From: Spartobacteria bacterium LR76 | GTDB lineage: Bacteria; Verrucomicrobiota; Verrucomicrobiia; Chthoniobacterales; Terrimicrobiaceae | Length of the DNA stretch: 64,000 nt | Direction of reading: 5' to 3' | Assembly (NCBI GenBank): GCA_003054655.1 | Contig: QAYZ01000015.1 | Coordinates: 248,001 to 312,000, forward strand | In this document: piece after piece, positions 15,441 to 30,452 of the stretch | Position numbering within the stretch: position 1 is the stretch's first letter | Layout: each line of letters opens with the position of its first letter | Translations under genes and position numbers: made by a program | Notes under the pieces: generated by a model | Databases searched by the model: none | What the model was told of the DNA's origin: nothing | What the model saw: only the letters and a program-made list of their open reading frames with translations

Positions 15441-15484
15441 GCTCCCTTTCGTGTGCTCATGGCGCGGGAGCCGGTCTTTCCGAG

Positions 15485-15892: not shown

Positions 15893-15979
15893 AACACCTT
15901 CATTGATCAGGTTTAGGATTGGGAGTATTTAGCGAGAACACGCCCTGAATCACGACTTTTACCGCCCAACACAGAAGAC

Positions 15980-16078: not shown

Positions 16079-16249
16079 ATTTTTCCGAACAAAGGACCCT
16101 TGTTCACTCAATTTCTTAACCAAATATCCAACTATTCGCTGCCTACCCGTTCGCTCAACCAGATCCTCATTTAACACCAAATCCTCGATTGCAGCCTCGA
16201 TTATCGGCCAAGCTAAATCTTTTTTAAATTCGTCGTATACACATTTCAT
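16058..16249 (-). CDS. Orphan small protein in RHS-remnant region
   Basis: A 63-residue, mostly helical protein (MKCVYDEFKKDLAWPIIEAAIEDL...) with no recognised family. It is 6 bp downstream of the 135-residue gene on the same strand. It could be a complete small gene or the surviving part of a longer one. Its 3' end shares the 99-bp duplicated sequence with the neighbouring orphan gene. Confidence 0.45.
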   Translation of the reverse strand: MKCVYDEFKKDLAWPIIEAAIEDLVLNEDLVERTGRQRIVGYLVKKLSEQGSFVRKNERTDQL

Positions 16250-16255
16250 TTACTT

Positions 16256-16663: not shown

Positions 16664-16887
16664 ATTGGATTTCTTATACTAAGAAGGACGCCCGCCGAAG
16701 CCAGCGATTCCTGCGGCAGGGTGCTCAGCCGGTTCTGGGCGTCGTAGGTGTATCCCACGTCGGCCTTCCCGGCCTTGCTCGCATCCGGCTCGGTCACCGT
16801 CAGCAGGTTGCCCGTCGCGTCGCACGTCATCACCCGGTTGTCCTGGGTGCGGCCCATGTAACAGGAGGGGAACAAGCCACAGGGCAA
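16660..16887 (-). pseudogene. Truncated RHS/YD-repeat fragment
   Basis: About 50 residues of RHS-repeat text are legible: GRTQDNRVMTCDATGNLLTVTEPD...VGYTYDAQNRLSTL, with the D-x-x-GN-L and Y-x-YDAqNRL signature of a YD repeat. The frame stops soon after (LLSIRNPI). The many upstream repeats and the downstream RHS core expected of a real RHS protein are missing, so this is a remnant. It lies 125 bp outside the left attachment repeat of the integrated element. The loss of the rest of the RHS gene may be related to rearrangement around that site. Confidence 0.65.
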
Positions 16888-17011
16888 TCACGGCGTCGTG
16901 AAGGCCCGGGGCGGGCCTGGCTGGAGATTGGGAACGCTGGCGTAGAGCCTCGATCACCGGGGGAGATTACCCCTTTCGATTGACCAGCGGAAAGGACTCT
17001 GAATCGAAAAA

Positions 17012-17057
17012 TGGAGCCATGGGGATTCGAACCCCAGACCTCCTCAATGCCATTGAG
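17012..17057. repeat. Left attachment repeat (displaced tRNA-Ala 3' part)
   Basis: A 46-bp sequence identical to 30380-30425 inside tRNA-Ala(GGC). It covers the tRNA from the anticodon stem to the discriminator base. Outside the repeat the two sites differ completely. This is the expected left-behind copy after integration into a tRNA gene. On the tRNA strand it is followed by TTTTTCGATTC rather than CCA. Confidence 0.92.
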
Positions 17058-17139
17058 CAGCCCCACCCTCTAGAATCCCGGATTTCCCTCTAGGATTCGC
17101 ATTCATTCGTTCACAAGAATTGCCATTCTTGTTGATTTT

Positions 17140-18333
17140 TTGGGCACTATAGGTCACTTTCCCCTTGTGCCAAAAAGGGCAACATTTGAACCAGTTCGGG
17201 TGGATGGACGGAAGAGCGGTTGGAAGATCGACATCCCCGCTCGCTACTCGTCGACCGGAAAACGCGGGCGGTATTTCTTCACCACGAAGACAGAGGCGGA
17301 GAACTTCGCCGACGATGAACGTACCCGGGTGAAGAACTTCGGAATGCAGGGGGGCGGAACGCTCTCCCCTTCCCAATCCGAGCAGGCGCTCGCGGCATTC
17401 TCGGCACTGTCCCCGCATGGCGTAACCTTGAATGAGGTCGTACAAGATTGGCTTTCCAGGAAGCGCGACCGGGAACAGTCTGTCCCCTTCTCTCAAGCCA
17501 AGGACAAGTTTCTTGCCCATCTCGCCAAGAAGAAGATCAAGGGCCGCCGTGTCAGTGGAAAATATCAACAGACCGCAAGACAGGTGTTCGGTCGTTTTCC
17601 CTCGCTGTCCGACAAGATGCTTTCCGACATCGACGCCCGGACATTGGCGCTGGCATGTGAAGGAATGACGCCGAGCGTAAAATTCACCGCCCTGGCCGTT
17701 CTTTCCTCGCTCTTCAACTGGTCCGCTGAAACTCCGCGTCATTGGGTAAAAGCCAATCCGGCCAAGGATGTTCCCCGCGATGATCTTGGAGCGCGACGGG
17801 TCGATACGTTTTCGCCTGCCGATGTGAAAACGGTGCTCAAGACTCCAACCGACGACGATATCCGAAAATACCACGTCCTAGGATTCTTCGCTGGCATCCG
17901 CCCCGAGGAGCTGCCGCGAGTCCGAGAAGAGTTCATCAACTTGCCCGAGCGGGTGATTGTGCTGCCGCACGAGATCACCAAAACCGGAGTACGTCGAGTC
18001 ATCGAGATCAACGATACGCTTTTAGCGTGGCTGGAATGGTTCGCATCACGCAGCGTCCCACAGCCCGGCCCCATCATATCACCCGTAAATATCAGGAAGA
18101 GGCTCCGCGCCTTCCGCGAAAAAGCCGGAGTCGCATGGATTCAGGACGGCATGCGCCATTCGTATGCAAGCTACTGGCTCGCGATTCACAAGGACGAGCA
18201 TCGCTTGAGAGATAACCTGGGGCATCGCAGCGCAGATGAGCTTTGGGACCACTACCACAAGGCAAAGACCCAAAAGGAGGCGAAAGAATTCTGGAACCTG
18301 ACGCCGACGAACATTTTCGACAAATCAGAATGA
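17140..18333 (+). CDS. int: Tyrosine-type site-specific integrase
   Basis: A 397-residue recombinase with an SAM-like core-binding N-terminal region (about 80-200) and a catalytic C-terminus. Visible residues: Arg254 in FFAGIRPEEL, Arg339-His340 in GMRHSYASY, His362 in LGHRS and nucleophile Tyr372 in LWDHYHK. The usual His three residues before the second Arg is Asp here (DGMR), a variation worth noting. It should cut and join at the 46-bp att repeats, the left one ending 82 bp before the gene. The start is TTG 17140 or GTG 17167; no good Shine-Dalgarno is seen. Its TGA overlaps the next gene's ATG. Confidence 0.92.
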   Translation: MGTIGHFPLVPKRATFEPVRVDGRKSGWKIDIPARYSSTGKRGRYFFTTKTEAENFADDERTRVKNFGMQGGGTLSPSQSEQALAAFSALSPHGVTLNEVVQDWLSRKRDREQSVPFSQAKDKFLAHLAKKKIKGRRVSGKYQQTARQVFGRFPSLSDKMLSDIDARTLALACEGMTPSVKFTALAVLSSLFNWSAETPRHWVKANPAKDVPRDDLGARRVDTFSPADVKTVLKTPTDDDIRKYHVLGFFAGIRPEELPRVREEFINLPERVIVLPHEITKTGVRRVIEINDTLLAWLEWFASRSVPQPGPIISPVNIRKRLRAFREKAGVAWIQDGMRHSYASYWLAIHKDEHRLRDNLGHRSADELWDHYHKAKTQKEAKEFWNLTPTNIFDKSE

Positions 18334-18950
18334 CCGCCCCATCAAGCAAAGACGCTCAGTCTAGAATTGAAGTGCATTACAAGGCCATAAATACCTTGTG
18401 TGGCATTCATCCGGATGACGCGCATTTGGCGATTTGTGCAAAGCTCAAACATAAAAACACAAATGTGACGCTCAAAAAAATCGATGACCTAATGATTGAT
18501 GCTCTGGTTTGCATGGAAAACAATCTTACGTCAGTTCAGAAGGACTACGAGCAACGCAGACGAAAGGACGATCCCGCGTTTGCCAAAAAACTAGACCGAG
18601 CGCGGTATGCCACCCGCAAGCCAACATTCAGCCAAGCCGAATTGTTTGTACTACAGAATTGGCGCAGAATTTGCCCCGCTGTCAAAAAAGGGGTTCCAGT
18701 CACGGACGAGCAAAGGAAAGCCCTGTGCGAACTTGCGGAAAAAGTTCCAGGGCTACGGGAGTGGTCGCCAGATGCAGCGGGTGCGTTTATGGAGAGATTT
18801 GGGCTATTTCGGTCCGCAGTAGATGTCCGAGAGTCCTTTAAAAAAACATGGCAACGCCTAGGGCTAAAATCCTTCGACAAAAAGAAAATCGTAGGGCTCG
18901 TTGAGACATCGAACGGATATTGGCGCTTTATTGAACCCGGCGACCTGTAA
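18330..18950 (+). CDS. Hypothetical protein coupled to integrase
   Basis: A 206-residue basic, helical protein starting MTAPSSKDAQSRIEVHYKAINTLCG. The gene starts at an ATGA overlap with the integrase stop, so the two are translationally coupled. No domain was recognised. Residues 70-110 (EQRRRKDDPAFAKKLDRARYATRKPTF) are strongly basic and could bind DNA. The GC content is lower than that of the integrase. A role as an integrase accessory or element-specific factor is only a guess from position. Confidence 0.7.
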   Translation: MTAPSSKDAQSRIEVHYKAINTLCGIHPDDAHLAICAKLKHKNTNVTLKKIDDLMIDALVCMENNLTSVQKDYEQRRRKDDPAFAKKLDRARYATRKPTFSQAELFVLQNWRRICPAVKKGVPVTDEQRKALCELAEKVPGLREWSPDAAGAFMERFGLFRSAVDVRESFKKTWQRLGLKSFDKKKIVGLVETSNGYWRFIEPGDL

Positions 18951-19012
18951 GCTTATTTCAGTTTTTGTCCCCACAGAGAGGGAATTCACTGTATAAATAG
19001 GTAGGCACTCCA

Positions 19013-19210
19013 ATGAGTGCCAACGATCTACTGACAAAGCAGGAAGCCGCCAATCTCTTGGGTGGCAGTAAGCCGGTATCAATATCCTACATCGATCAAC
19101 TTCTCGCTCGCCGCAGACTGCCGAAGGTACGCCTATCCTACAAGGTCTGCCGCATTCCACGCGCTGCGGTTGAAGAGTTCATCGCCAAACGCACCGAGGT
19201 CGCCCGATGA
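19013..19210 (+). CDS. Excisionase-like HTH protein
   Basis: A 65-residue protein with the MerR/excisionase-type helix-turn-helix layout: LLTKQEAANLLGGSKPVSISYIDQLLARRRLPKVRLSYKVCRIPRAAVEEFIAKR. The pattern 'eaA-lL ... yid-Ll...g.lP-vr...r-r-i.raaveeFi' is that of helix_turn_helix_17 proteins, which include Xis-like recombination directionality factors. It lies downstream of int on the same strand and overlaps the next gene by 4 bp (ATGA). Confidence 0.78.
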   Translation: MSANDLLTKQEAANLLGGSKPVSISYIDQLLARRRLPKVRLSYKVCRIPRAAVEEFIAKRTEVAR

Positions 19211-19407
19211 GCGCCCCCGGAAAACGAAGCAGGCCGACCACTCGCAATGATCGGCCCGCTAATAGCTTCGAGTGTGAAGAAAAGCTAACGCCTGCCCGCG
19301 AAAAGCTCAAGCGGATTTCTCAGAATCTCCGCGCACGTCACGCGGTATCGGGAGCATCGTATTACCTTCGGCTTGCCGATGTTCTGGAGGCCGCTGCACT
19401 AAAATGA
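19207..19407 (+). CDS. Small hypothetical protein
   Basis: A 66-residue basic protein (MSAPGKRSRPTTRND...) with a helical C-terminal half. It overlaps the end of the excisionase-like gene (ATGA) and has AGGT in its ribosome-site position. No family was recognised. Coding is supported mainly by coupling and spacing. Confidence 0.5.
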   Translation: MSAPGKRSRPTTRNDRPANSFECEEKLTPAREKLKRISQNLRARHAVSGASYYLRLADVLEAAALK

Positions 19408-19471
19408 GAATCCTGCGCAGGCTGCGCAGCCTGATTAGAACCATCGCGCCGTTCCTGGGAGTATCCCCGAA

Positions 19472-20917
19472 ATGAAGCCCGCCCTTTCTCATCCAGGCCG
19501 GGAGAGCGCCGTCATTGGGCGACTCGCCGCACAAGGAAGACTTCCGAGGTATAATCCCGATTCCTTCCTTGCTCGGGAGTACCGCGCTATCGTCACCGCC
19601 GCGGCGAGCATCGCCCGCGATGGTCGGGAGCCCCACATCATCGCCATCAATGAGCGAATCGAGGCCAACCCGATGCTTTGCCGGGAGATGCAGGAGACGC
19701 TTGGCGATAGCTGGGCAACTGCGTGGCAGGCGAGAGCTGATTCTAGTCTGGCGTTTGGTGCTGAGGGGCCAATCCTAGACTGCCTCCGCGATCTTGAAGA
19801 GGCAGCACTAGAGCGCGAATCCCAAGAGGCAACAAAGCAACACGCCGAGGGCCACATATCCCGCTCCGAACTCCTCGACCGCCTAACCGCGATAGAGAAA
19901 TCCGGACGCTCCGATTCTGGCGACGTGTCAGACCTCTTTGCCGATGTCGGTAAGATCCTTTCCGCCGGACTGGACCCTGAGCGCCCCACCGTTGCCGAGT
20001 ATGCCACCGGGTCTTTCCTGTTCTACGCGGGGCGGCTCAACGAAATTCACGGCGAGCCGGGAACGGGCAAGAGTAATATCAATCTCCTCGCCACCATGAC
20101 GGTACTGGCGACCGGGCAACCTGTTCTCTACATCGACCCCGAGGACAGCGCCGAGGCGGCAATCCGCCGTCTTCTCGGCTTCGGATGCCCGGAGGATGTC
20201 ATACGGGATCACTTCAAGCACACGCGATGCCCAGCGGGAGACGACTACGCGCGCCTTGCCTCCTGGGCGACAGCAAATAAACCTCCTCTTGTCATCGTGG
20301 ACGGTCTTGCTGAGGCACTCGCCGCCGATGGATTGAGCGAGGACAAACCCGAGGATTTCTTGAAGTTCTGCCGGGAGCGCCTGCAACCATTCACCGATGC
20401 AGGGGCGGCAGTCGTTCTCTCCGATCACGTCGTCAAGAGCGCCGAGAACCGGGGCCGATGGTCACGGGGGACAGGGGCGAAACTCGGGCGATATGATGGC
20501 GTTTCGTATGCCGTGGAATTGGGTCAAGGATACTCCCCGACCGTTGAGGGTTTTGTCCGGCTGTCGGTCGCCAAAGATCGAAACGGAGGCGTGGGCGTTG
20601 TTGGCCAGTCTGTCACCGAGATTCATTTCTCACCGATGGAAGCAGGACTAACCCGCGTCACATTCAAAAAACCAACTGGAAAGAGCGAGGGGCGATTCCT
20701 TCCTACCGCGCTTATGGAGAAGGTTTCGCGGCAACTCGAAACCGTACCAACCTCATCGGCCCGCGATCTTCGAGCACTAGGCAAATCGGATTTCGTTGAT
20801 AGAGCCATCCGAGAACTCGTTGCCATGGGCAATCTCCAAGTCACTCCGGGCGGCATTGGAAGGTCGAACAAATACAAGCTCATCAAGCCGTATCGGGAGG
20901 ACAACTCCGATGTTTAA
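19472..20917 (+). CDS. RecA/AAA-fold ATPase with DnaB-N-like domain (replication protein candidate)
   Basis: A 481-residue protein. Residues 10-85 resemble the DnaB helicase N-terminal domain (ESAVIGRLAAQGRLPRYNPDSF...YRAIVTAAASIARDG). The RecA-like ATPase core follows, with Walker A GEPGTGKS at 194-201, YIDPED near 220, Walker B LVIVDG at 273-278 and AVVLSDHVV as a sensor-like strand, as in plasmid RepA/AAA_25 helicases. The last 80 residues look like a winged helix. It could be a replicative helicase or loader for an excised form of the element. The iteron-like ACCGTG array begins 4 bp after its stop codon. Confidence 0.82.
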   Translation: MKPALSHPGRESAVIGRLAAQGRLPRYNPDSFLAREYRAIVTAAASIARDGREPHIIAINERIEANPMLCREMQETLGDSWATAWQARADSSLAFGAEGPILDCLRDLEEAALERESQEATKQHAEGHISRSELLDRLTAIEKSGRSDSGDVSDLFADVGKILSAGLDPERPTVAEYATGSFLFYAGRLNEIHGEPGTGKSNINLLATMTVLATGQPVLYIDPEDSAEAAIRRLLGFGCPEDVIRDHFKHTRCPAGDDYARLASWATANKPPLVIVDGLAEALAADGLSEDKPEDFLKFCRERLQPFTDAGAAVVLSDHVVKSAENRGRWSRGTGAKLGRYDGVSYAVELGQGYSPTVEGFVRLSVAKDRNGGVGVVGQSVTEIHFSPMEAGLTRVTFKKPTGKSEGRFLPTALMEKVSRQLETVPTSSARDLRALGKSDFVDRAIRELVAMGNLQVTPGGIGRSNKYKLIKPYREDNSDV

Positions 20918-20920
20918 CAC

Positions 20921-21061
20921 ACCGTGCCCCTACCGTGTCCCAACCGTGCCCCGGACACGGTTGCAACCCACCGTGCCCCTGTGCCCCTCTCCCTTTAGGG
21001 AGGGGCACGGTCGGGCACGAGTGCGAGGCAGCAATTCAAACTCGAAACCTTGGGGCACGGT
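20921..21061. repeat. Iteron-like ACCGTG(CCCC) array, candidate origin or operator
   Basis: Seven ACCGTG hexamers lie within 141 bp. Four are on the plus strand, at 20921, 20932, 20943 and 20970; the first three are spaced exactly 11 bp apart. Three are inverted, at 20956-20961, 21006-21011 and 21056-21061. Most extend to ACCGTGCCCC. The copies around 20970-21011 face each other and make a strong hairpin (GTGCCCC...GGGGCAC with CTCCC/GGGAG inside). The position after the helicase-like gene and directly before the gene at 21071 fits an iteron origin or an autoregulatory operator. Confidence 0.7.
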
Positions 21062-21070
21062 CAGAAGCTA

Positions 21071-21331
21071 ATGAAACATCACGAACCACACGACGAACCG
21101 GAGAACTTGAATCTAGCTTTCCAGGTAGCACACCTTGAGCAGGAGCTTGCCAGCTACAAGCAGCGCACACGCGAGGCGATAGGCGATCTCGTCGGCGACG
21201 TAACCCAGTATGTGCGGGAGGCCGTGCACACCAAGGCCGGATACGTCCTAACTCAGGAAGTGTTGATCGACATCGACGAGCAACTAGCCGCACTCGATGA
21301 CACAATCATCCGGCGAGTGTTCAAGCGATGA
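21071..21331 (+). CDS. Small coiled-coil hypothetical protein
   Basis: An 86-residue acidic helical protein (MKHHEPHDEPENLNLAFQVAHLEQELASYKQRTREA...). Heptad-like spacing of Leu/Ala in residues 14-40 suggests a short coiled coil. ATG 21071 lies 9 bp after the last inverted ACCGTG copy, so the repeat array may control it. No family was recognised. Confidence 0.6.
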   Translation: MKHHEPHDEPENLNLAFQVAHLEQELASYKQRTREAIGDLVGDVTQYVREAVHTKAGYVLTQEVLIDIDEQLAALDDTIIRRVFKR

Positions 21332-21453
21332 ACCAGCCGCATCACCCCCGTATGAAGGAATCTCTTCCGAAAATTTCTCTAGGTCAGGTTCCGTCGAAGG
21401 CAGCCTGTTTTCGAGCGCACATCACCGTCCTTTTCTGAATCCGAACCATTGTC

Positions 21454-21918
21454 ATGAAACGTCAAAAATACGCCCACCCGCTCCGAGTTTATGCGGAGCA
21501 ATATCAAGTCAGCCTCTCCACGATAAAGCGATGGAGCGCCCGCGATCTCAACTTGGACGATCCGAACGCGATACGCTCGGAGGTACTCGTTCAGAAGCAC
21601 ATGCCCCCGAATATGCCTTTCAGCGACTCGGCAGGGACAGACAAGGCACTCGAACTCAGTAAGACCCTTCTCGCCGCCAAGGAAGTGATCAAATGGCTTG
21701 TGCCGAACTGCTATGACAGAGCCGCCGTTGAGGGGAGAGGATCGACCAGGGAGGAGGCTATTGCTGGGTACGAGGAGATGTTTTCCTTCGTGGTTGAGGT
21801 GTGCTGGAAAACCTGCGTCCTGATTCAACTGCAAGGACTCACCTTCGAGGCAGCGAGGGAGCAAGTGTTTACGGAATTTGACGCGAAGCTGGGGGCGACT
21901 GGCGATGCCGTTTCTTGA
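21454..21918 (+). CDS. HTH protein, terminase-small-subunit-like
   Basis: A 154-residue protein. The N-terminus KYAHPLRVYAEQYQVSLSTIKRWSARDLNLDDP reads as a helix-turn-helix (aeqYqVSlsTIkrW), followed by a helical region. The size and HTH-first layout are like phage small terminase or gpNu1-type proteins, which recognise DNA for packaging. This is a by-eye resemblance, and a transcription regulator is equally possible. The 3' end overlaps the next gene by 14 bp. No large terminase subunit is present in the element. Confidence 0.6.
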   Translation: MKRQKYAHPLRVYAEQYQVSLSTIKRWSARDLNLDDPNAIRSEVLVQKHMPPNMPFSDSAGTDKALELSKTLLAAKEVIKWLVPNCYDRAAVEGRGSTREEAIAGYEEMFSFVVEVCWKTCVLIQLQGLTFEAAREQVFTEFDAKLGATGDAVS

Positions 21919-22219
21919 TGATGCTGGCATTCCGATTCTGGCGGTGCCTCCAGCGGTGTACGAAGAGGAAGAATCCGAAGGTTCGAACGCTGGCCCCGAT
22001 AAATGGGATGCGCTGGCCGTGTATTCCCGGCTACTCGGGATGTGCTCTACGCCGGGTCAGATAGCAGCCGCGCAATATGTTTGCGGCATGGACAACAGGC
22101 GTCCCTGCGAAATCGCGTTATCGCTCCGTGTCAGCCGCCAAAGGTTCAATGCTTTGCGGCATTGGGCCGAAAAGCGCCTCTCTATAATCAAGGGGGGTGT
22201 TTACGAAGGAACCGCATAA
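21905..22219 (+). CDS. Small HTH protein, sigma-region-4-like
   Basis: A 104-residue protein. Residues 50-95 (STPGQIAAAQYVCGMDNRRPCEIALSLRVSRQRFNALRHWAEKRLS) look like the sigma-70 region 4 pattern of 'one helix - HTH': EIA-sLrVSrqrfnaL-hwA. Phage late-gene regulators often have this form. It starts at ATG 21905 inside the end of the previous gene and overlaps the next by 23 bp, so these three genes look like one transcript. Confidence 0.6.
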   Translation: MPFLDDAGIPILAVPPAVYEEEESEGSNAGPDKWDALAVYSRLLGMCSTPGQIAAAQYVCGMDNRRPCEIALSLRVSRQRFNALRHWAEKRLSIIKGGVYEGTA

Positions 22220-23423
22220 ACAAAGGCTCGGCGGACAATTCAGTTTACGCGGCGCGCATTTGTATATGCACGATCAATTGGAAGCTCGAAAAGCTGAAGC
22301 GATACCTTACACGGCGTTTCTTGAACAGAATGCACCGCAATCCAAGAACTTCGATGATCTCCTCGGCAAGTGTGATCTTGAGTTTGGGAAAAAGCACCCC
22401 TCTCGCGGGGTTTTTCAAATCGCACGGAGCCGCTACGACGCCGGGCAAATCATTCCGAAAAAGTTTCATGACATTATCGAATCCATCGGCACGGAAACTC
22501 CCAAAGCTGAAAGCACTCCCGCCCTTGCGGCTGAAGCAGCCAAGCCATTAACGCCGCCCGCCGTTGTCTCTGCTCCGATTGCTTCCACCCCTAGCAAGCC
22601 CGCCGCGAAGGCAATGCCCGCTCCTGTCGCTCCGGCTCCTGTCCGGGCAGAGCATCTTCCAAAGGTCAGCATGGCAACGCTTGGAAAGACGGTGAACGCG
22701 CTGATGACTGATCCCAATCCGAGTGTGCGCCAGCCCGTAATCGAAGGCATCCAGAAAGGACTTGAGGCAAGCAAGCTCATTCACCGCGCAGAATTCGACA
22801 AGCTGTCTCCTCAAGCAAAGATCGACTACATCCGGGGCGGCGGGAAAATTACAAACATGCTCGGCTTGGCGACGACCACCGCCGACAAGGAACAGCCCAA
22901 CAACGCCAAGCCGGTCTATGCGGCTGGCGAGAAACCGTCTGATGACATCGATTTCAGCTTCATCAGTGATTTCGTCGCGAAAAGAAAGCTGCGTCTTGAG
23001 TTCGAGGAGAACCGAGGGCTGACGTGTGACTCGTGGTTGGAGTGGATGCGCTTCCGTCATGCCTATTTCGCCAGCGTCGGCGGGACCACCGAGGAAATGA
23101 TGGGCCGGGCTATTGTCATTCCCAGCGTTGTCATCGAGTCGAAAAAGGAGGTCTACGACCGTGAAGAGAAGTGGAAGCGCCAGGACGCCTATTTCGTCGA
23201 GAAGCTTGCATCTCTCCGGGCCGAACTGGAGCAGGCACAGAAGCCCGGAAACTCCAGCGAGTGGGATTCACGCAGGCGTGAACGGGTTCCCCTCCTAGAG
23301 CGAGCCATCCAGCAAGCGACCTCCGATTGGCAGAACGTCCAGAAAAAGCGCGTCGACCACCACGCCACTGAGAACAGGCGGCGCGAGGAGCGATTCACCG
23401 CCATGCGCAAGGCTCTGTACTAA
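22197..23423 (+). CDS. Hypothetical protein with Ala/Pro-rich linker
   Basis: A protein of up to 408 residues in three parts: a folded N-terminal part (about 20-95), an Ala/Pro linker (about 105-155) and a charged helical C-terminal half ending in a long coiled-coil-like stretch (KEVYDREEKWKRQDAYFVEKLASLRAELEQAQ). No family was recognised. Its place directly before the tape-measure-like gene suggests a structural or assembly role, but this is inference. The start is uncertain: GTG 22197 overlaps the previous gene, while ATG 22266 gives a shorter protein. Neither has a clear ribosome site at normal spacing. Confidence 0.65.
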   Translation: MFTKEPHKQRLGGQFSLRGAHLYMHDQLEARKAEAIPYTAFLEQNAPQSKNFDDLLGKCDLEFGKKHPSRGVFQIARSRYDAGQIIPKKFHDIIESIGTETPKAESTPALAAEAAKPLTPPAVVSAPIASTPSKPAAKAMPAPVAPAPVRAEHLPKVSMATLGKTVNALMTDPNPSVRQPVIEGIQKGLEASKLIHRAEFDKLSPQAKIDYIRGGGKITNMLGLATTTADKEQPNNAKPVYAAGEKPSDDIDFSFISDFVAKRKLRLEFEENRGLTCDSWLEWMRFRHAYFASVGGTTEEMMGRAIVIPSVVIESKKEVYDREEKWKRQDAYFVEKLASLRAELEQAQKPGNSSEWDSRRRERVPLLERAIQQATSDWQNVQKKRVDHHATENRRREERFTAMRKALY

Positions 23424-23476
23424 TCCGAGAATACTTTCCGCTAGGAAAATCAGGCCCCAGCCTCTGAGGGGGATTC

Positions 23477-25528
23477 ATGCGCCGCGCTGGGCGGCGGCAG
23501 AGGCACCCAGCAAATTTTTTTATGGCTACTGAAGCTCGCCTAAAAGGCAAACTCACGATGGACGATTCGCAGTTCCACACTGCGTTGCGTCGATCCCAGC
23601 AAAGTGCAGCGCGATTTGCATCCACTGTCGGCAGGACGGTATCGGTTGCAGGGGCCGTTGGCTTTTCTGCGATGACAGCCGGAGCCGTGGCGACATCTGT
23701 TGCTCTCGGGGCATCGGTCAAACGAGCCTTGGAACTCGGGGGGAAGTTCAACGACCTGAAGAACCGCACGGGGGCGACAGTCAAAGGGCTTACGCTGCTT
23801 TCTACAGCGTTCGATAATGCAGGTATCGGTGGCGATCAACTCGGTGCGACCATCAATAAGTTGCAGAAGGCCATTGAGGACAACAACCCCGCAATCTCTC
23901 AGCTTGGCCTAAATCTGGAGGATCTGAAAAAGCAGGCTCCAGACCAGCAGTTGCTCGCAGTCGGGAAGCGTATCGCCGGTATCAAGTCACCTTCCGAACA
24001 GGCGGCAACCGCGATGGCGATTTTCGGCAAGACGGGTGGTCAGCTTCTCCAGGTCTTCAAAGACTCCGGGGCGCTGGACAACGCAAGAGAGGTGCTTGGG
24101 TCGATGCCGGAAATCCTAGACCGGAACGCCGAGAAGTTCGACGCACTCGACGATGCAATCGGCAACATCACGCAAAAGGTTGACGCCTTTGGAGTCGGCC
24201 TTGCGGACAAGGTAGCGCCCGCGCTCGACCCGATCTTGGGTAAGCTCCTGAAGATCGACTCGGCCAAAATTGGGCAAGGTGTCGGAGAGGACATCGTACA
24301 GGCGGGAAAGAACATCAAGGACGCGGTATCGGGCGCATTCGATGGAGAAGAGGTCAAGGCGGGCATGCTCAATGCCGCTGTACAGTTTGGCGGGTTCGTT
24401 CGCGATGCCGTGGTGGGTAATGCGAGCAAAATCAGCAGTGTCTTGCTCCGTGCCTTCAGTAGCCCGGTTGCCTTTCTGCAAGCCCACCTTGAGGCAAATC
24501 TTGCGAAGCTCCAGGCACGGGCTCAGGGCATCAATGTTGATCCCGTGAGCGACGCCGATAAGGCGCGCGCGGGGGCATACGAAAAGCAGATTTCCGAAAA
24601 GAAAGATCAGCTCAAGGCGACGGCGGAAAAGTACAAGGCTGGCGGGGCTGGCATGGAACTCACGGCAGAGGGCCAGGGAATGCTCATCGCGATGGATGAG
24701 CTAAAGAAATCCATCATGAACCTGACCGAGGCGCGGGGGGATATCGTCACCCGGATGAACAATTCGGCCATGTATGATCCCAATGAGATTTATAAGCGGA
24801 TCATGGCCGAGGGAGGGCCGAAGGTTGGCCCCGGTGATGGAGTTTCGATGAAGGGTCTAGCTGACGATCTGGACAAATCAGCGCGAGAGGCTGACACCCG
24901 CCTTCGCAACACGCTCTTTTCCTTGGTGAACAAGATTGCGCCGAACACCGTCAAAGCGGCCACGTCACAGAGCCAGGGGAGTGATAACACCCCATCGCCC
25001 TCCCCAGCATCGAGCGTAGCGCCTTCTACGCCCCCTGTTGCCCCCACAACGCCCCCTAGCAGCGCCGCTCCTGCTCCAGCGCCGACAGCAAGCAGCACGG
25101 TTGAGAGAGACGTGAACGGGCGACGCACGAAGATTTCAGGTGCGCGATACGGGAATCAGCTTGCTCCCGGCGGCATCGAGCGAGCCAGAAATCAACCTGC
25201 CCCATGGGAGAAACTGCGAAACTCTCCGGCTCCCTGGGATATCTACCGGAGCAGCCCTGCCCCCTGGGACTTGATGCGTAGCGATCCCGCCGTGCCGTCT
25301 CCGGTTTCACAGCCGAGCGTAAAGCCGCCCGGACGCCCTCGAATGACCACGGACGACGCGAGCCGAGAGAACAAGATCGTAGCGAGGTACGCGCAGAGCA
25401 AGGACAGCAAAAACGCGGAATCCGAGAAAGCGGCATCTTCCATGGCTCAAGACATCGCCATGATTCGCCAAGGCATGAACGTTATAACAGGCGGAGGTGG
25501 CGGCGGCGGAAAAGGCAAGGGCAAATAA
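23477..25528 (+). CDS. Phage tail tape-measure-like protein
   Basis: A 683-residue protein. After a basic leader, the text MATEARLKGKLTMDDSQFHTALRRS...FASTVGRTVSVAG...ALGASVKRALELGGKFNDLKNRTGATVKGL is that of phage tail tape-measure N-termini. AISQLGLNLEDLK...QLLAVGKRIAGI...ATAMAIFGKTGGQLLQVFKD is the TP901-type core. The middle is long and helical; the C-terminal part has a Pro/Ala linker and three 10-residue repeats (R-x-x-PAPW-x-x-x). ATG 23477 is chosen because GAGGGGG lies 6 bases before it. At under 700 residues it would fit only a short tail. No other tail gene is near. Confidence 0.8.
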   Translation: MRRAGRRQRHPANFFMATEARLKGKLTMDDSQFHTALRRSQQSAARFASTVGRTVSVAGAVGFSAMTAGAVATSVALGASVKRALELGGKFNDLKNRTGATVKGLTLLSTAFDNAGIGGDQLGATINKLQKAIEDNNPAISQLGLNLEDLKKQAPDQQLLAVGKRIAGIKSPSEQAATAMAIFGKTGGQLLQVFKDSGALDNAREVLGSMPEILDRNAEKFDALDDAIGNITQKVDAFGVGLADKVAPALDPILGKLLKIDSAKIGQGVGEDIVQAGKNIKDAVSGAFDGEEVKAGMLNAAVQFGGFVRDAVVGNASKISSVLLRAFSSPVAFLQAHLEANLAKLQARAQGINVDPVSDADKARAGAYEKQISEKKDQLKATAEKYKAGGAGMELTAEGQGMLIAMDELKKSIMNLTEARGDIVTRMNNSAMYDPNEIYKRIMAEGGPKVGPGDGVSMKGLADDLDKSAREADTRLRNTLFSLVNKIAPNTVKAATSQSQGSDNTPSPSPASSVAPSTPPVAPTTPPSSAAPAPAPTASSTVERDVNGRRTKISGARYGNQLAPGGIERARNQPAPWEKLRNSPAPWDIYRSSPAPWDLMRSDPAVPSPVSQPSVKPPGRPRMTTDDASRENKIVARYAQSKDSKNAESEKAASSMAQDIAMIRQGMNVITGGGGGGGKGKGK

Positions 25529-25531
25529 GGA

Positions 25532-25572
25532 AAAGCCCCGCCACGACCATTTCGGGCCGTAGGCGGGGCTTT
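25532..25572. terminator. Rho-independent terminator after the tape-measure-like gene
   Basis: A perfect 11-bp stem AAAGCCCCGCC/GGCGGGGCTTT around a 19-base loop that itself has a small GGCC-type pairing. It is flanked by A and T runs, 3 bp after the stop of the tape-measure-like gene and before the convergent HTH gene. It can act in both directions. Confidence 0.85.
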
Positions 25573-25586
25573 ATGCTGCCGGGCAG

Positions 25587-25793
25587 TTATCGTTTCGGAG
25601 ATCGGTGTGAGGCGTTCGGGTTGTACGTCAGCTCCTCCAGCGCCTTTTCAACGTCGCTCCAGCGATACCGGACGCATTTTGAACTGAGCTTGATAAACGG
25701 TATCAGCCCTTGCGCCTTGAGCGTGTTCACGTGGCGGACACTGACGTTCATCCGCGCAGCGACCTCTTTTATGTCAATAAGAGGCTCGATCAT
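25587..25793 (-). CDS. Excisionase/MerR-like HTH protein
   Basis: A 68-residue DNA-binding protein: MIEPLIDIKEVAARMNVSVRHVNTLKAQGLIPFIKLSSKCVRYRWSDVEKALEEL. This is the winged HTH pattern of helix_turn_helix_17 proteins (diKEvAarmnVSvrhVn.l...G.iP.ikls.k.vRyr..dvekale). It is last in a minus-strand set with two other genes (25806-26117 and 26114-26659), facing the forward block across a terminator. Such proteins serve as excisionases or small repressors. Confidence 0.75.
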   Translation of the reverse strand: MIEPLIDIKEVAARMNVSVRHVNTLKAQGLIPFIKLSSKCVRYRWSDVEKALEELTYNPNASHRSPKR

Positions 25794-25805
25794 CGGATTA
25801 CCGTC

Positions 25806-26117
25806 TCAATTATTCATCCATACCGCAACCCTTCTCCTCGTGTTGATTGTTTCGGTCGCCATCAATCGGAGGAAGGCGACGACATTGGAGGGCGCGCTTA
25901 AAAGGCGGAATGTTCGTTGACTGTGGTCATACTCCATATCGATGTCGAATCGGTAGCGCATGAACTCCAGATCGCGCTGGATGGTCTTTGTTGTAACTTC
26001 GAATTCTTCCGCCGCAGTCGAGCAGTTGAGCCGCTCTCCCCTTTGAAGGTCGCCTAGAATTTTTGCGATCCGTTCAACCGCAGGGAGCGCCCGACGCTGA
26101 ACAACGCCCCTTTTCAC
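25806..26117 (-). CDS. HTH_11/DeoR-type DNA-binding protein without sensor domain
   Basis: A 103-residue protein. Residues 12-70 (AVERIAKILGDLQRGERLNCSTAAEEFEVTTKTIQRDLEFMRYRFDIDMEYDHSQRTFRL) form the N-terminal winged HTH of DeoR/WYL-type regulators ('vttKTIqRDleflr...'). The usual WYL or sugar-sensing domain is absent, so this may be a minimal regulator. The GTG start at 26117 has a strong AAGGAGGT site and overlaps the upstream gene's stop by 4 bp. Confidence 0.75.
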   Translation of the reverse strand: MKRGVVQRRALPAVERIAKILGDLQRGERLNCSTAAEEFEVTTKTIQRDLEFMRYRFDIDMEYDHSQRTFRLLSAPSNVVAFLRLMATETINTRRRVAVWMNN

Positions 26118-26659
26118 GCTGCCACCTCCTTACGCGCCGGGAATGGGTCATAGCTCGCCCACACCAAGCCCGCGTCGTCTTTCTGGAACTCCCATTTTCT
26201 GACCAACATTCTAGGCTTTTGCCTCATATCGTGTTCGTCGGCCTTACGTGCAGCCCTCTTGGCTTGCTTGAGACTGTCGAATCCACGTTCGCAGGCTTCG
26301 TGCTCTCCCACCCGCCCATGGTCGTAGATGTCGTCAAGGTATCCCTCCAGAATGGAATCCGTCATTTCCTCGACGGAGGTTTCCAGAATCTCCGCCATGT
26401 GCTCGATTCGGGCCATGTGTTTGCCGGAAATTGCGACATTCACCCGCTCCTCATCGCCGGACTTCGCCGCGTAGGCGGTTGCGATGAGCTTAGAAATCAG
26501 ATGATCCATTGTAAGGCCGTTCTTTCGGCCAAGCTCCTCGCCTCTATTCCACAATTCCAGGGACCAGTTACCGACATCGATAACGTTTCCCTCCGTGTCT
26601 TTGATGGTTACCTCGATGGTTTCAGCCTTTGCGGCTGCCTTCCGTGATTCTCTTTTCAT
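26114..26659 (-). CDS. Hypothetical protein with leader hairpin
   Basis: A 181-residue, charged, cytoplasmic protein (starts MKRESRKAAAKAETIEVTIKDTEG). The centre (about 70-110, VNVAISGKHMARIEHMAEILETSVEEMTDSILEGYL) is helical. No family was recognised. It is coupled by a 4-bp overlap to the DeoR-type HTH gene, so it is probably part of the element's regulatory switch. It has no Shine-Dalgarno. A 16-bp stem with a U-run ends only 12 bases before its ATG, which could attenuate its expression. Confidence 0.65.
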   Translation of the reverse strand: MKRESRKAAAKAETIEVTIKDTEGNVIDVGNWSLELWNRGEELGRKNGLTMDHLISKLIATAYAAKSGDEERVNVAISGKHMARIEHMAEILETSVEEMTDSILEGYLDDIYDHGRVGEHEACERGFDSLKQAKRAARKADEHDMRQKPRMLVRKWEFQKDDAGLVWASYDPFPARKEVAA

Positions 26660-26668
26660 GTAATAACG

Positions 26669-26746
26669 AAAAAGCCTCAGCCGGAAGGCTGTAACCTTTC
26701 CCGCAACGGCACGACCCGTACGCAGTATCCGACTGAGGCTTTTTTT
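26669..26746. terminator. Long-stem bidirectional terminator or structured leader
   Basis: A 16-bp inverted repeat (AAAAAGCCTCAGCCGG at 26669-26684 against CCGACTGAGGCTTTTT at 26729-26744, with one G-U type pair) encloses 44 bases. These can fold into two inner hairpins, CGG/CCG around a 6-base loop and GGAA.GG/CCTTCC. Runs of A and T on both ends make it a two-way terminator in form. On the minus strand it sits inside the 5' leader of the gene starting at 26659, so attenuation is possible. Confidence 0.7.
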
Positions 26747-26872
26747 CTCGTTTCATGTTTTTACGGCGCTGGATTCGTGGTCCAGGGTGAGAATTGCCGA
26801 TCCGCTGTTACAGCAGCGAACGCCCGACCGATAGAACAGCCTGGGCGGCGATGTCAAGATTTACCTGCCGAG

Positions 26873-27109
26873 CTACTTTCCCGCATCGCTCTGTGCGCTC
26901 GTCCGATCCTCACCCATCGCGATTGCCCGGCGAATGTTGCGGGTTTCCTTCCGCCGTCTCTTGTACCAGAGGCGGAATGCGGTTTCGTTGATGTCCCACC
27001 CGCCGCGATTACCGCGAGGCTTGCAGGCCGGAAACTCGCCAGCTTTGGCAAATTTCTGAATCGTCCATTCCGCGTACCCGCTCACCTTCGCTGCCTCCGC
27101 GGTGGTCAT
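26873..27109 (-). CDS. Small HTH (excisionase-like) protein
   Basis: A 78-residue basic protein: MTTAEAAKVSGYAEWTIQKFAKAGEFPACKPRGNRGGWDINETAFRLWYKRRR. This is the usual excisionase HTH pattern (ttaEaAkvsGyaewTIqkfa..GefPack.rGnrggwdi.etafr.W). A GGAGG site lies 7-8 bases before ATG 27109. It is separated from the minus-strand trio by about 210 bp holding the long-stem structure. It may be the element's main directionality factor. Confidence 0.72.
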   Translation of the reverse strand: MTTAEAAKVSGYAEWTIQKFAKAGEFPACKPRGNRGGWDINETAFRLWYKRRRKETRNIRRAIAMGEDRTSAQSDAGK

Positions 27110-27324
27110 AGCGCCACCTCCGTAAAGCTCGTTATTGCGTTTAGTTCAGCGGCAACAAGATGGCCGCTCGACAAGGAGGAGTGTGGCATTCTGAAATTCA
27201 GCCCCGGGAGGCCGTCTATCTCGTGCGTCGATGTTGTTATTTTCATCCCTACAGTGTAGCACCGCCAATGACCGCCAACCGGGGAAACTGAGAAAATCCA
27301 GTTTCAAAGATGGCAAGGTAATCT

Positions 27325-28245
27325 ATGCTCCGCTGGATGTCAGCGCGTGACCTTCGCACAGTAGAATCCGTTATAGCTCTGCCAGCTGGAGAGCATTCCT
27401 GGGTTGAATTCAAGGGGGTAAAAGGGAAAGATTTTTCAGATAATAACGTCTGCCAGAACTTCGTTTTGTCGTTGGCCAAGGAACTTTGCGCGTTCGCGAA
27501 CACCGGAGAAGGCCTCCTTATTCTCGGTATTGATGAAAACAAGACGACCAAAGAACGAACCGTAAGTTGTGGCGGGATTCCGCAAGTCAAGGGCCGGGAG
27601 AGAATGCAGAAATGGCTCCAGGATTCTCTGCCGCATCTCCTCGATCCCGCGTTGGTTGATTTTGATGTTTACGAAATATCAGATGGCGACGGGCTTGAAG
27701 CTGATCGAGCACTGTTCATCATCGAAATACGCCTGAGTTCGATTGCTCCTCATCAAGTAAGAGGGACGGGATGCTACTACGGAAGAGTTGCCGACAAAGC
27801 CCAACCTCTACCGCATCAATTTGTGTCGGACATCATGAATCGCTTCGTTCATCCCAAATTGAAGATCGTTTTTATATACGACGAGTTCACCAGCCCTCAC
27901 GAGCTAATCGTGAACGTGATAAACATTGGACGCGTTCCGGCAAAGTTGATCAATATTCGCCTTTGGATTTGGCCAAAGGAGAGGGTTATAATGTCAGGGG
28001 ATCGAGCTGTATCCTTCATCGAAGGAAAAGAGTGGCGCACCCTTGAGGCCGAGTTTCGCCCAATTCTACCAAGGCGTCATACAGAATGGAAAATCTCACT
28101 TCTCAGCCTGGGATATAAGGGGGTAAGGGTGAAGTGGGACATATCGGCAGATAGCGCACCTATTCTTAGTGGAGAACAGGAGATCACTGAATCAGACCTG
28201 ATGCGCAAGATTGATAGAAACTCCAATTTGGCGGCCCTCGAGTAG
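27325..28245 (+). CDS. AlbA_2/Schlafen-type putative nucleic-acid-binding protein
   Basis: A 306-residue protein. The N-terminal 150 residues match the AlbA_2 (Schlafen) pattern: VIALPAGEHSWVEFKGVKGKDF..., ELCAFANTGEGLLILGIDENKTT..., then IIEIRLSSIAPHQVRG..GCYYGRVADKAQPLP. Catalytic-type acidic residues sit in the WVEFK segment. The C-terminal half is beta-rich and unrecognised. Bacterial members occur as regulators, RNases or parts of defence islands. A good AAGGT site precedes ATG 27325. The GC content is lower than the core, as expected for cargo of a mobile element. The exact role is unknown. Confidence 0.78.
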   Translation: MLRWMSARDLRTVESVIALPAGEHSWVEFKGVKGKDFSDNNVCQNFVLSLAKELCAFANTGEGLLILGIDENKTTKERTVSCGGIPQVKGRERMQKWLQDSLPHLLDPALVDFDVYEISDGDGLEADRALFIIEIRLSSIAPHQVRGTGCYYGRVADKAQPLPHQFVSDIMNRFVHPKLKIVFIYDEFTSPHELIVNVINIGRVPAKLINIRLWIWPKERVIMSGDRAVSFIEGKEWRTLEAEFRPILPRRHTEWKISLLSLGYKGVRVKWDISADSAPILSGEQEITESDLMRKIDRNSNLAALE

Positions 28246-28380
28246 CTTCTCGAACGCCTCAGGTGACTCCTCTTTGATCCGATTGGCGTCCGATCCTGAG
28301 GCGTGGAGCAAGGCCTCAACGGAGCAGGACACACAAGAATGTATTGACTGACTTCCTGCGACTTTGTTAATCCGCCGAAC

Positions 28381-28677
28381 ATGATCCTACATCCATGTTC
28401 GTGCGGGTCGTTTCGAGTTTCCACGGGAAGCTCTCTCGACAAAACAAATCAAGCAGGAGAAACCGGATTCATTTACTGTCTGGATTGCGGGCGAATTTTC
28501 GGTCTCCACCCCAAAATGCTTCAAACCAGGGAGGCGGCTGGCGCTCTCTGGAATCGACGGAGAAAACAGGAGGTCGCGAGGAACTGGAAACCCATGCGTC
28601 AAACTGCCACCTGGGCTACATGGAGCGCATCCACGAATGGCGCGAGGTGCTCAGGTCGGAGGCGTAGCAGATCTTAG
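28381..28677 (+). CDS. Lar-like zinc-ribbon protein
   Basis: A 98-residue protein. HPCSCGSFRV...FIYCLDCGRIFG gives a C-x-C / C-x-x-C zinc ribbon, followed by REAAGALWNRRRK. The combination 'CpxCG...v.C..Cg...eeAi.lWNrR' is the hallmark of the Lar restriction-alleviation family of phages and mobile elements. Lar of the Rac prophage modulates type I restriction. The last 30 residues are basic and probably not part of the fold. The start is ATG 28381; the 3' end overlaps the convergent gene by 4 bp. Confidence 0.6.
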   Translation: MILHPCSCGSFRVSTGSSLDKTNQAGETGFIYCLDCGRIFGLHPKMLQTREAAGALWNRRRKQEVARNWKPMRQTATWATWSASTNGARCSGRRRSRS

Positions 28678-29207
28678 CTGCCCCCTCCTGCAGGTTTTAT
28701 CTCTTGACTTTGCTGTTCGCGGATAGTGCCCCAAGTGGAATTTAGATGCTTATCATTTTGGCGGACGCCTCTTTGCGCCACAAATCCAATTACGTAACAC
28801 CCTATGTTGGCACTCAGCAACGCTCCGACAGTACACTTCAACACGATGCAATGCCCTACGATAAACGCATCAATCCCCGTCTGATTTACGTGTTCAGCAA
28901 TTTCCCAAGGAGTGAAAACCACCCCTAGAGCCATACAAAATACTACCCCGGAAAAGATCCAAATAGGAGCAATCATTACTTTCCCCCACATGAAGAGGAA
29001 AAACCGTATTTTTTTGCCTCGATTTTCTGCTTCCCTGGCAGTTTCAGAATTATTCGGAGAATTTGAAACTATTTTTACAACAGTCTCCCGGTAGTTTTTC
29101 TCTATCTCCGATAATTTCGATCCATGATGCCCTCGCAGAGCATTTAATAAGGCCATCGTTGCTCCAAAAATACTCAGGAGCAACGCGATTAAAGTATAAA
29201 GGGGCAT
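28674..29207 (-). CDS. Membrane protein, second gene of a two-gene cargo operon
   Basis: A 177-residue protein with an N-terminal helix (MPLYTLIALLLSIFGATMALLNAL), a soluble charged stretch (28-65) and two further hydrophobic helices (about 70-100 and 118-150). It has a short polar C-terminal tail. No family was recognised. It lies 11 bp downstream of the 212-residue soluble gene on the same strand, so they are co-transcribed. A membrane protein paired with a soluble partner at the end of an integrated element is a form often seen in anti-phage systems, but no known system is matched. Confidence 0.7.
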   Translation of the reverse strand: MPLYTLIALLLSIFGATMALLNALRGHHGSKLSEIEKNYRETVVKIVSNSPNNSETAREAENRGKKIRFFLFMWGKVMIAPIWIFSGVVFCMALGVVFTPWEIAEHVNQTGIDAFIVGHCIVLKCTVGALLSANIGCYVIGFVAQRGVRQNDKHLNSTWGTIREQQSQEIKPAGGGS

Positions 29208-29218
29208 AGAGAGCTACC

Positions 29219-29857
29219 CTACGCGGGTAGCTCAGAACTTTGTAAACGTCCCCAAACAGAGTCAAACAGTTTTTCCTGTTGTTTCGCAATAAGCGGAGCA
29301 CGAAAATTCACCTTGGCTTTAATAACGTCCGCCGAAGAATCCAAATCAATTGGAGGATGCGGCTCCTCAATGCGGATCATTCTCGAGTCACAGACGATAA
29401 AGTGCGATATATTGGACGCGCTTTTTGCCAATACGTACTCAAAAACCTCGCCAAATCGACTCTTCATTGACGCGAGGGCTTTAGCGCAGTCAGGAGTCGC
29501 GTTAATGACGATCATTTGAATCTTTCCGCCGGTCTTTCGTAAGTTTTCCGCAGCTGCCGCAAAGGGCCGATCAAGGGCGCTCCAAAAGTTTCCGCCACTT
29601 CCAGTCAGAATTTTCACGCTCGTCAAGGACGTTAAAAGCATTGTGTGAGTAAGGCACAATGCATCAAAAAACGAGTCGTTCTTGAAGTCCTGATCGTATC
29701 CGCGATCAATCAGGGCAGCGACAAGCTCATGAAATGGCGGCGTGTCACTCAATTCGCACGCTTCCCTGTACTCACGAAGAGCATCACTGATCTTCGTGAA
29801 CGGAGATTGAGCGCTTTCGACACCAGTCGAGGCTTCCGGTTCAACGATTGCAGGCAT
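29219..29857 (-). CDS. Soluble protein of unknown function, first gene of a two-gene cargo operon
   Basis: A 212-residue cytoplasmic protein. Residues 85-212 look like a folded alpha/beta domain: GSGGNFWSALDRPFAAAAENLRKTGGKIQMIVINATPD..., FEYVLAKSASNISHFIVCDSRMIRIEEPHPPIDLDSS...., KLFDSVWGRL. The alternation of strand text ending in 'FIVCDSRMIRIEEPHPP' is reminiscent of PLD-like effector domains, but no HKD motif is present and I make no assignment. It is followed after 11 bp by a membrane protein gene. Both are AT-richer than the core genome. Confidence 0.65.
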   Translation of the reverse strand: MPAIVEPEASTGVESAQSPFTKISDALREYREACELSDTPPFHELVAALIDRGYDQDFKNDSFFDALCLTHTMLLTSLTSVKILTGSGGNFWSALDRPFAAAAENLRKTGGKIQMIVINATPDCAKALASMKSRFGEVFEYVLAKSASNISHFIVCDSRMIRIEEPHPPIDLDSSADVIKAKVNFRAPLIAKQQEKLFDSVWGRLQSSELPA

Positions 29858-30376
29858 GTTTTTCGAAGGGTTTTGTGAATATCCTGTATGTCAACAGCAG
29901 GTTTTTGCGAAAAAGACCGCACTTTTCCATGCGAACACGCATTTGGACTCGCATTTCGAGGCGAGAGTCAAAATATCAAAGTGTTCATTCGTTCTACGGG
30001 ATGGAACGAACGGTTGCGTGGGAGAAATTGCAAAAATCAGCGAACGAGGCACGAACTTTCAATCCGCTCCTCGATGGAGGTCTGGATTCAGGAATCATAC
30101 TCATAGCCGACAAGCTGAACGTACTTGTAGCTACAGAAAGGTCAATCAGCGAACAACTGAAAACTGCATTTTCTGGAGTCCGGGCGTCTGGACTAGTCTG
30201 GATTCAGACTGAAACTGGTTTCAAATTTCCAAGAACTCAAAAACATTCCAGACGTCTGGAATTCCGATTTTGCACCCGGTGCAAAATAGCTACCTCGGGG
30301 AGATTTCAAGGCACCAATGCGGCACCATGGAAAACCTTCATCCACACTCAGCCAGCGTAAGTCACTGAAGCTGAAG
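29858..30376. other. Gene-poor right end of the element with palindromes and repeated motifs
   Basis: About 520 bp without a convincing gene; the open frames here have no family likeness and odd composition. It holds the 12-mer GTCTGGATTCAG twice (30080 and 30196), further GTCTGGA copies at 30186 and 30254, and two adjacent palindromes (30245-30262 and 30267-30287). It ends at the tRNA gene. Sites of this kind next to an att site may bind integrase arms, excisionase or a repressor. Confidence 0.55.
30245..30287. repeat. Two adjacent palindromes near the right att site
   Basis: ATTCCAGACGTCTGGAAT (30245-30262) is a perfect 18-bp palindrome. Four bases later, 30267-30287 is a 21-bp inverted repeat, ATTTTGCACC, one central base, GGTGCAAAAT. 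Both are perfect. They lie about 95-135 bp from the right attachment repeat and could be operators or recombination accessory sites. Confidence 0.65.
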
Positions 30377-30452
30377 TGGTGGAGCCATGGGGATTCGAAC
30401 CCCAGACCTCCTCAATGCCATTGAGGCGCTCTACCAACTGAGCTATGACCCC
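30377..30452 (-). tRNA. tRNA-Ala (anticodon GGC)
   Basis: A 76-base cloverleaf on the minus strand: acceptor GGGGTCA paired with TGGCTCC, including the G3-U70 pair that identifies tRNA-Ala; D-arm GCTCAGTTGGTAGAGC; anticodon arm CCTCA-ATGGCAT-TGAGG with anticodon GGC; T-arm around GGTTCGAATCC; and encoded CCA. It reads alanine codon GCC. Its 3' part is the integration site of the adjacent element and was restored by the element's own 46-bp copy. Confidence 0.96.
30380..30425. repeat. Right attachment repeat within tRNA-Ala
   Basis: 46 bp identical to 17012-17057. It spans discriminator base to anticodon stem of the intact tRNA-Ala. Together with the left copy it defines a 13,368-bp insertion unit. 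Confidence 0.92.

Follow-up and report, generated by a model that had tools for sequence, protein, structure and literature searches.

A verrucomicrobial island in tRNA-Ala with a tail tape-measure gene and no recognised head genes: a possible phage satellite

The phage-inducible chromosomal island-like elements (PLEs) of Vibrio cholerae incorporate a tail tape-measure protein (TMP) of their own and build chimeric tails, and putative tmp genes are also listed for PLE-like elements and for capsid-forming phage-inducible chromosomal islands (cf-PICIs) (Mathur et al., 2026; the parts of PMC12987554 consulted, including the legend of Extended Data Fig. 10). Here we describe an island of 13.4 kb from Spartobacteria bacterium LR76 (Verrucomicrobiota), located in a stretch of 64,000 nucleotides that we refer to as the window (GenBank assembly GCA_003054655.1, contig QAYZ01000015.1, positions 248,001 to 312,000). 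Like a PLE, it is an integrative island with its own TMP that, as read from its genes, would depend on a phage for all other particle components. It differs in host phylum and in genes, and the PLE case is experimental; a tail-assembly chaperone, encoded by PLEs, and a baseplate hub, encoded by some of them, cannot be named in the island (same parts of PMC12987554). The phage-inducible chromosomal minimalist islands (PICMIs) share with it a minimal set of integrase, small regulator and replication protein and the lack of a capsid-remodelling gene, but they adjoin fis in Vibrionaceae, measure about 6 kb and have no TMP described in the sections of PMC10803314 consulted. In size and layout the island falls within the PICI and cf-PICI range of 10–15 kb, with an integrase at one end, regulators, a replication gene and accessory genes (He et al., 2024; PMC11364771, in part). 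No packaging-redirection gene is recognised in it, an apparent difference from PICIs. A cf-PICI should moreover have a capsid, portal, protease and large terminase, and neither these nor other head-formation genes are recognised in the island. Verrucomicrobia phage P8625 (NC_029047) has relatives of both the island's replication ATPase (41% identity over two thirds of the query) and its TMP (25% over a third), but it is a 32.9-kb phage with annotated large terminase, portal, P22-coat-type protein and tail fibres. The listings of the literature searched, which excluded most subscription papers and all bioRxiv preprints, contain no description of TMP-bearing satellites in Verrucomicrobiota.

The island spans 17012–30425 between two exact copies of a 46-bp direct repeat (17012–17057 and 30380–30425; 93% identity when extended to 56 bp). 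The right copy lies in the 3´ part of a tRNA-Ala(GGC) gene (30377–30452, minus strand), the sole tRNA detected in the window and the apparent integration target; the left copy corresponds to the 3´ part of a tRNA-Ala without CCA, beyond which different DNA adjoins. A tyrosine recombinase of 397 amino acids (17140–18333, plus strand; phrog_1, E 2e-29; no Pfam integrase match at E 0.1) starts 83 bp past the left copy. The G+C content is 54.6%, against 61.0% and 61.3% in the flanks. Eighteen predicted element proteins were scanned against Pfam and PHROGs at E up to 0.1, and none matched a large terminase, portal, capsid, lysis or relaxase family; nor is a relaxase, transfer or type IV secretion gene recognised by Pfam. 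An earlier note on this DNA had described identical repeats in the tRNA gene, an adjacent tyrosine integrase, one tape-measure-like protein and a gene set matching neither a full prophage nor an integrative and conjugative element, and all of this is borne out, the last by recognised genes. The only structural protein that can be named is the TMP (23477–25528, plus strand), which matches five tail-tape-measure PHROGs (best E 1.6e-12), whereas no other tail family matches any element protein. Its frame of 683 amino acids is intact, with an alternative in-frame ATG at 23525 that would give 667 amino acids. Matches of its profile in the PDB (designed-repeat and apolipophorin chains) were taken as noise, and a scan of IMG/VR with it gave no match. 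By gene content the island combines site-specific integration, replication of its own and an incomplete virion set, the combination that marks a satellite, with a right junction that is not clean. It is a real, headless and probably satellite-type element in which the TMP is the only recognised virion gene.

In the order to which the host belongs, the TMP is found at 27 places in 21 of 213 genomes, the window included, and the contexts of 26 were read, the remaining one lying on a 3.9-kb contig. Head markers (portal, protease or capsid) accompany it in 15 contexts, and four more have only tail-region clusters, unnamed in PHROGs, that elsewhere accompany head genes. In line with the larger size of phages, the stretch read shows no integrase match in any of these 19 phage-type contexts. 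All marker profiles, those of the unnamed clusters included, derive from the very loci under study; PHROGs supplied the names portal, protease and capsid, a “terL” cluster was named by position alone, and the integrase profile had eight seeds, among them four of the five integrases of the headless loci. These five, the window and loci L022, L039, L045 and L034, make up the remaining seven contexts together with L040 and L030. L040 has a capsid gene, and both it and L086, a locus from the wider search below that has tail genes, were rejected as headless elements because of capsid or sheath genes. L030 was set aside since its TMP lies at a contig end and groups near TMPs of phage-type loci in the tree.

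All five headless loci combine an integrase match, a TMP and replication-type genes, and their TMPs (544–683 amino acids) have open frames throughout. Among their 57 proteins, five match integrases, five TMPs, four excisionase-type families and several replication families; no large terminase, portal or capsid appears among the best 25 of 49 families matched, the rest being weaker, and one unattributed protein matches a “lytic tail protein” family (E 2e-7). L022 is bounded by a 22-bp repeat (9.9 kb, tRNA-Arg) and L045 by a 43-bp repeat (8.7 kb, tRNA-Val), while L039 extends to its contig end. Before the left repeat of L045, stretches repeated from the start of its integrase gene (7427–7557) look as if a second related element had once stood in tandem at tRNA-Val. 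L034, in which no repeats were found and which has a MobA/MobL relaxase, may represent a different type of element or a pair of neighbouring ones; the relaxase gene (14314–15543) shares its stretch with an integrase, a primase-type gene, a small-terminase-like gene and the TMP. The search was then widened. Across the class, 35 further loci were fetched (a third copy in genome G493 and a second place in G511 were left out), of which 20 have a phage cluster marker, L086 has tail genes and 14 are unassigned, none of the 14 with an integrase match. Across the phylum, seven new loci were found, two with portal matches and the rest judged by eye or on short contigs, several of them unassigned, and again none with an integrase match. 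No headless TMP locus with an integrase match was added by the 35 class-wide or the seven phylum-wide loci.

The main TMP tree, built from the conserved domain with 42 rows and without L045 for its long branch, speaks against a common origin of the headless TMPs. A single headless clade (four rows) is rejected (approximately unbiased test, p 0.0016). The TMP of the window stands beside those of the phage-type loci L023 and L031 from the same host family (support 94/87), and that of L039 beside L041 from L039's own host family (100/99). By plain identity, the row closest to the window TMP is headless L022 (40%). The same groupings appear in a quick 44-row tree that includes L045 and P8625, and strongly supported branches force only two label changes. 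These groupings suggest either repeated uptake of the TMP from local phages or descent of the elements from such phages; the tree fits both. A C-terminal motif, LxExRxQT, defined only after the alignment was seen, is kept in L022 and L039 and in five of the 11 aligned TMPs from other loci. The C-terminal part of the window TMP has three PAPW words that are absent from the other 15 aligned TMPs.

The replication gene of the island encodes a DnaB/RecA-type ATPase of 481 amino acids (19472–20917, plus strand; AAA_25, E 2e-7; primase/helicase and DnaB-like PHROGs, E about 1e-6). Next to it, at 20924–21058, are seven GTGCCC/GGGCAC hexamers (strand not applicable), six of them within 20901–21050, compared with an average of 0.08 in 150 bp across the window; a count of six is reached in eight of 6385 overlapping 150-bp windows. 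The ATPase of the earlier note thus stands, and its iterons are retained solely as a hexamer cluster, a putative origin. In the order, the ATPase occurs in six of 213 genomes and lies with a TMP at one of its six places, several of which are on short contigs. Locus L054 has integrase, an unassigned gene, a helix-turn-helix (HTH) gene and ATPase in the order of the window up to the point where the contig stops, and L055, a tRNA-Val element of 7.9 kb bounded by 44-bp repeats, has the integrase and the ATPase but no TMP. With the exception of P8625, no TMP is found near ATPase relatives whose context was read, two of these being on contigs below 6 kb, and the same holds for all eight loci read among further relatives in Verrucomicrobiota metagenome-assembled genomes and phage-like contigs. 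Relatives also occur on two small actinobacterial plasmids, and two scans of IMG/VR with the ATPase returned one locus and then three, one common to both. At the ends of the phage-like contigs L094 (5172–8025) and L147 (3767–6510), two divergent integrase genes stand side by side next to the ATPase module. The replication genes of the other four headless loci differ from this ATPase, and no other locus read has the gene set of the window, i.e. integrase, this type of ATPase and a lone TMP. The conserved gene order that was to be sought in relatives was accordingly not found. The candidate new family of satellites or integrative elements survives as a satellite-like element, our best reading, with four further headless loci that carry integrase and TMP; a single new family does not, given the different replication genes and TMPs acquired more than once.

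Starting from replication genes instead of the TMP changes the picture. A search with the DUF5906-type helicase carried by L022 and L039 gave 24 places, spread over 19 of 210 genomes; of the 22 contexts read, only those of L022 and L039 have a TMP. Ten of the 20 new contexts have an integrase match and none has a portal, protease or capsid match; L161 matches the terminase cluster named by position, and several of the contigs are shorter than 6 kb. Three are bounded tRNA elements: L156 (6.4 kb, tRNA-Arg), L163 (5691–13338; 7.6 kb, tRNA-Lys), with a methylase and an HNH nuclease behind the integrase-HTH-helicase core, and L165 (5255–14471; 9.2 kb, tRNA-Tyr), with a methylase and an MvaI/BcnI nuclease in the same position. 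In L166 (5178–11685), an integrase-helicase stretch that begins at tRNA-Leu contains a small-terminase-like gene and no other head or tail marker match. One of 34 proteins scanned matches phrog_4044 (E 4e-18; best 25 of 58 PHROG families seen), and we assign the match to the L166 gene because the sole Pfam small-terminase match, below cutoff, is there. A scan of IMG/VR with the helicase alignment gave no match. Restriction-modification and similar cargo is typical of phage satellites, and a small terminase of their own is the device by which Staphylococcus aureus pathogenicity islands redirect packaging. Small tRNA elements with such cargo or such a gene make a satellite reading of the window more likely. 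Because searches by replication gene yield further small tRNA elements and only a few contexts with a TMP, the TMP is the accessory of a minority, and the island is better seen as one outfit within a wide class of small tRNA-integrated elements.

Judging from its anatomy, the island could well be a phage satellite, one that would hijack a siphophage and build in a TMP of its own; to this reading we give close to an even chance. The integrase and the excisionase-type proteins would move the island into and out of tRNA-Ala, and upon infection by a siphophage the ATPase would act at the GTGCCC cluster and amplify the circle. The helper would provide head, packaging enzyme, tail tube and tip, as none of these is recognised in the island. 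By analogy with PLEs, the island TMP would replace that of the helper to give chimeric satellite tails; these might evade the tail assembly of the helper itself or be preferred to it. The Schlafen- and Lar-like genes would be cargo. This reading is favoured by the tRNA repeat with its adjacent integrase and by the tRNA repeats that flank two other headless loci, L022 and L045. Also in its favour are the matches of the 57 headless-locus proteins, the open TMP frames that do not form one clade, the C-terminal motif of L022 and L039, the restriction-modification and small-terminase-like genes of related small tRNA elements, and the precedent of the PLEs. Several observations weigh against it. No helper, excision or particle has been seen, and with neither a second TMP nor a portal of this family in the genome of the window, no resident helper of this type is seen. 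Neither a tail-assembly chaperone nor a capsid-redirection gene can be named, whereas PLEs carry a chaperone gene. The TMPs of the window, L045 and L034 lack the C-terminal LxExRxQT motif, and L034 has a relaxase. The right junction, where 59–87 bp are shared with congeners, is no clean insertion. Finally, the headless loci were found through TMP searching, which biases their count, and the fractions obtained through replication genes are low. More broadly and more tentatively, Verrucomicrobiota may hold a large undescribed class of minimal tRNA-borne satellites, several of which captured a TMP independently from phages of their own host family, such that chimeric tails would have evolved repeatedly beyond the Vibrio PLEs, in elements where no chaperone or capsid gene can be recognised. 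Should this hold, tail remodelling would become a general strategy of satellites, since it would extend to minimal elements of a second phylum that lack head genes and repeatedly captured their TMP from local phages.

Alternatively, the island may be a siphoprophage shrunk by deletion, with integrase, replication module and an unused TMP left over. The grouping of the window TMP with those of phage-type loci from its own host family fits such decay, P8625 combines relatives of both the ATPase and the TMP, and the integrase-HTH-ATPase module also ends two phage-like contigs. We nevertheless consider it rather unlikely: all five lone TMP frames are open, at least 544 amino acids long and near integrase and replication genes, and the same small architecture occurs with quite different cargo. 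The portal served as a control for decay. Searching for it returned 30 rows, which fall on 29 places in 22 genomes; 14 places are on TMP contigs already read and the other 15 were fetched, of which 11 have other head or tail markers and four do not, three of these being truncated frames and one lying on an 11-kb contig. None of the 15 has an integrase match. In this set, therefore, integrase elements with an intact portal on its own were not seen, compared with five lone TMPs in open frames. The control is weak, because integrases of phage-type loci also fall outside the stretch read (none in 19 contexts) and detection of markers of distant phages is limited.

The TMP could also be a decoy in a defence borne by the island and poison the assembly of tails in infecting phages, an effect that Tai and Rta reach in different ways. 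Islands of this kind do bear defence-type cargo, but the parts consulted of PMC12987554 and of He et al. (2024; PMC11364771), the source of our tail-inhibition comparison, do not describe any known blocker as a homologue of TMPs. The phage-like lengths of the TMPs and the motif kept in two elements look functional rather than dominant-negative, and PADLOC had no match for ten window proteins, a set without the TMP, all of which makes a decoy improbable. Even less credence goes to an integrative plasmid-like or mobilizable island in which the TMP hitch-hikes as cargo unrelated to particles. The ATPase relatives on actinobacterial plasmids and the relaxase of TMP-bearing L034 would fit this, but no relaxase or transfer gene is recognised in the window element and the tree requires at least two TMP uptakes by headless elements. 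The TMP is a virion protein, for which we know of no role in plasmids.

The remaining genes of the island fall into a rightward and a mostly leftward group. On the plus strand, the integrase is followed by a 204-amino-acid protein with no assigned family (18336–18950), an HTH_17 protein of the excisionase family (19013–19210), a 66-amino-acid protein with no Pfam or PHROG match (19207–19407) and the ATPase. The 204-amino-acid protein has its positional counterpart between integrase and HTH gene in L054, a 229-amino-acid gene that is absent from the matches of its search. Past the hexamers are three small genes, encoding a 93-amino-acid protein with no family assigned in the Pfam and PHROG scans (21050–21331), a 154-amino-acid protein with an HTH-like N-terminus (21454–21918) and a 113-amino-acid protein that is HTH-like by eye and has no family match (21878–22219). 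The 154-amino-acid protein bears a weak resemblance to the gene preceding a terminase-like gene in L044; we do not claim it as a small terminase, the BLASTP match (E 0.008) covering just 24 residues and the single-sequence model being of low confidence (predicted local distance difference test, pLDDT, 48). Directly 5´ of the TMP, a 408-amino-acid orphan (22197–23423) has an alanine/proline-rich middle and no phage match; a single-sequence model, of low confidence (mean pLDDT 49), shows it as mostly helical, and its order-wide search gave eight weak matches besides the window (best E 3e-6), mostly to the middle part. A terminator-like hairpin (25531–25572, no strand assigned; z -4.3) follows the TMP gene. 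Beyond it, four genes on the minus strand encode an excisionase-like HTH_17 protein (25587–25793; phrog_66, E 6e-10), a DeoR-type regulator of 103 amino acids (HTH_DeoR; 25806–26117), a 181-amino-acid protein with no Pfam or PHROG match (26114–26659) and a further HTH_17 protein (26873–27109; Pfam and PHROGs). The three HTH_17 proteins and one HTH_DeoR protein account for the four small HTH proteins noted earlier; two of the HTH_17 genes match phrog_57, a small-terminase family, by way of the HTH region, and match excisionase families more strongly. As for the cargo of the earlier note, a Schlafen AlbA_2 protein (27325–28245, plus strand; E 8e-12) is above the curated cutoff, and a Lar-like restriction-alleviation protein (28381–28677, plus strand; E 1e-4) is below it. 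Two minus-strand genes of 177 (28674–29207) and 212 amino acids (29219–29857), with no family assigned in the Pfam and PHROG scans, complete the set.

The same tRNA-Ala is present in both congeneric genomes, G086 and G087, in which the TMP, ATPase and 408-amino-acid gene of the island were not found. Just inside the right repeat, however, the stretch 30293–30379 (no strand assigned) is common to congeners, its whole 87 bp to G087 and the 59 bp from 30321 to G086, with a chromosome-like divergence. The repeats are exact, but because of this shared stretch the right boundary of the element, which the earlier note took them to define, is unproven. The stretch is either native DNA, in which case the layout is no plain insertion, or an arm of the element that remains in the congeners. 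A clean empty site was not found, as G086 carries other DNA there and the G087 contig stops about 150 bp past the shared stretch, and no second repeat pair was found beyond short words. Two operator-like palindromes are near the right end, one perfect of 18 bp (30245–30262) and one of 21 bp with a one-base centre (30267–30287). On the other side, the DNA to the left of the left repeat (15472–17011) is low in G+C (49%), contains a YD-repeat fragment and small orphans and is absent from G086, where its place is taken by a hydrolase-type gene (judged by eye), with no match elsewhere in the genome of the window, and another gene. This stretch may be what is left of an earlier insertion at that tRNA.

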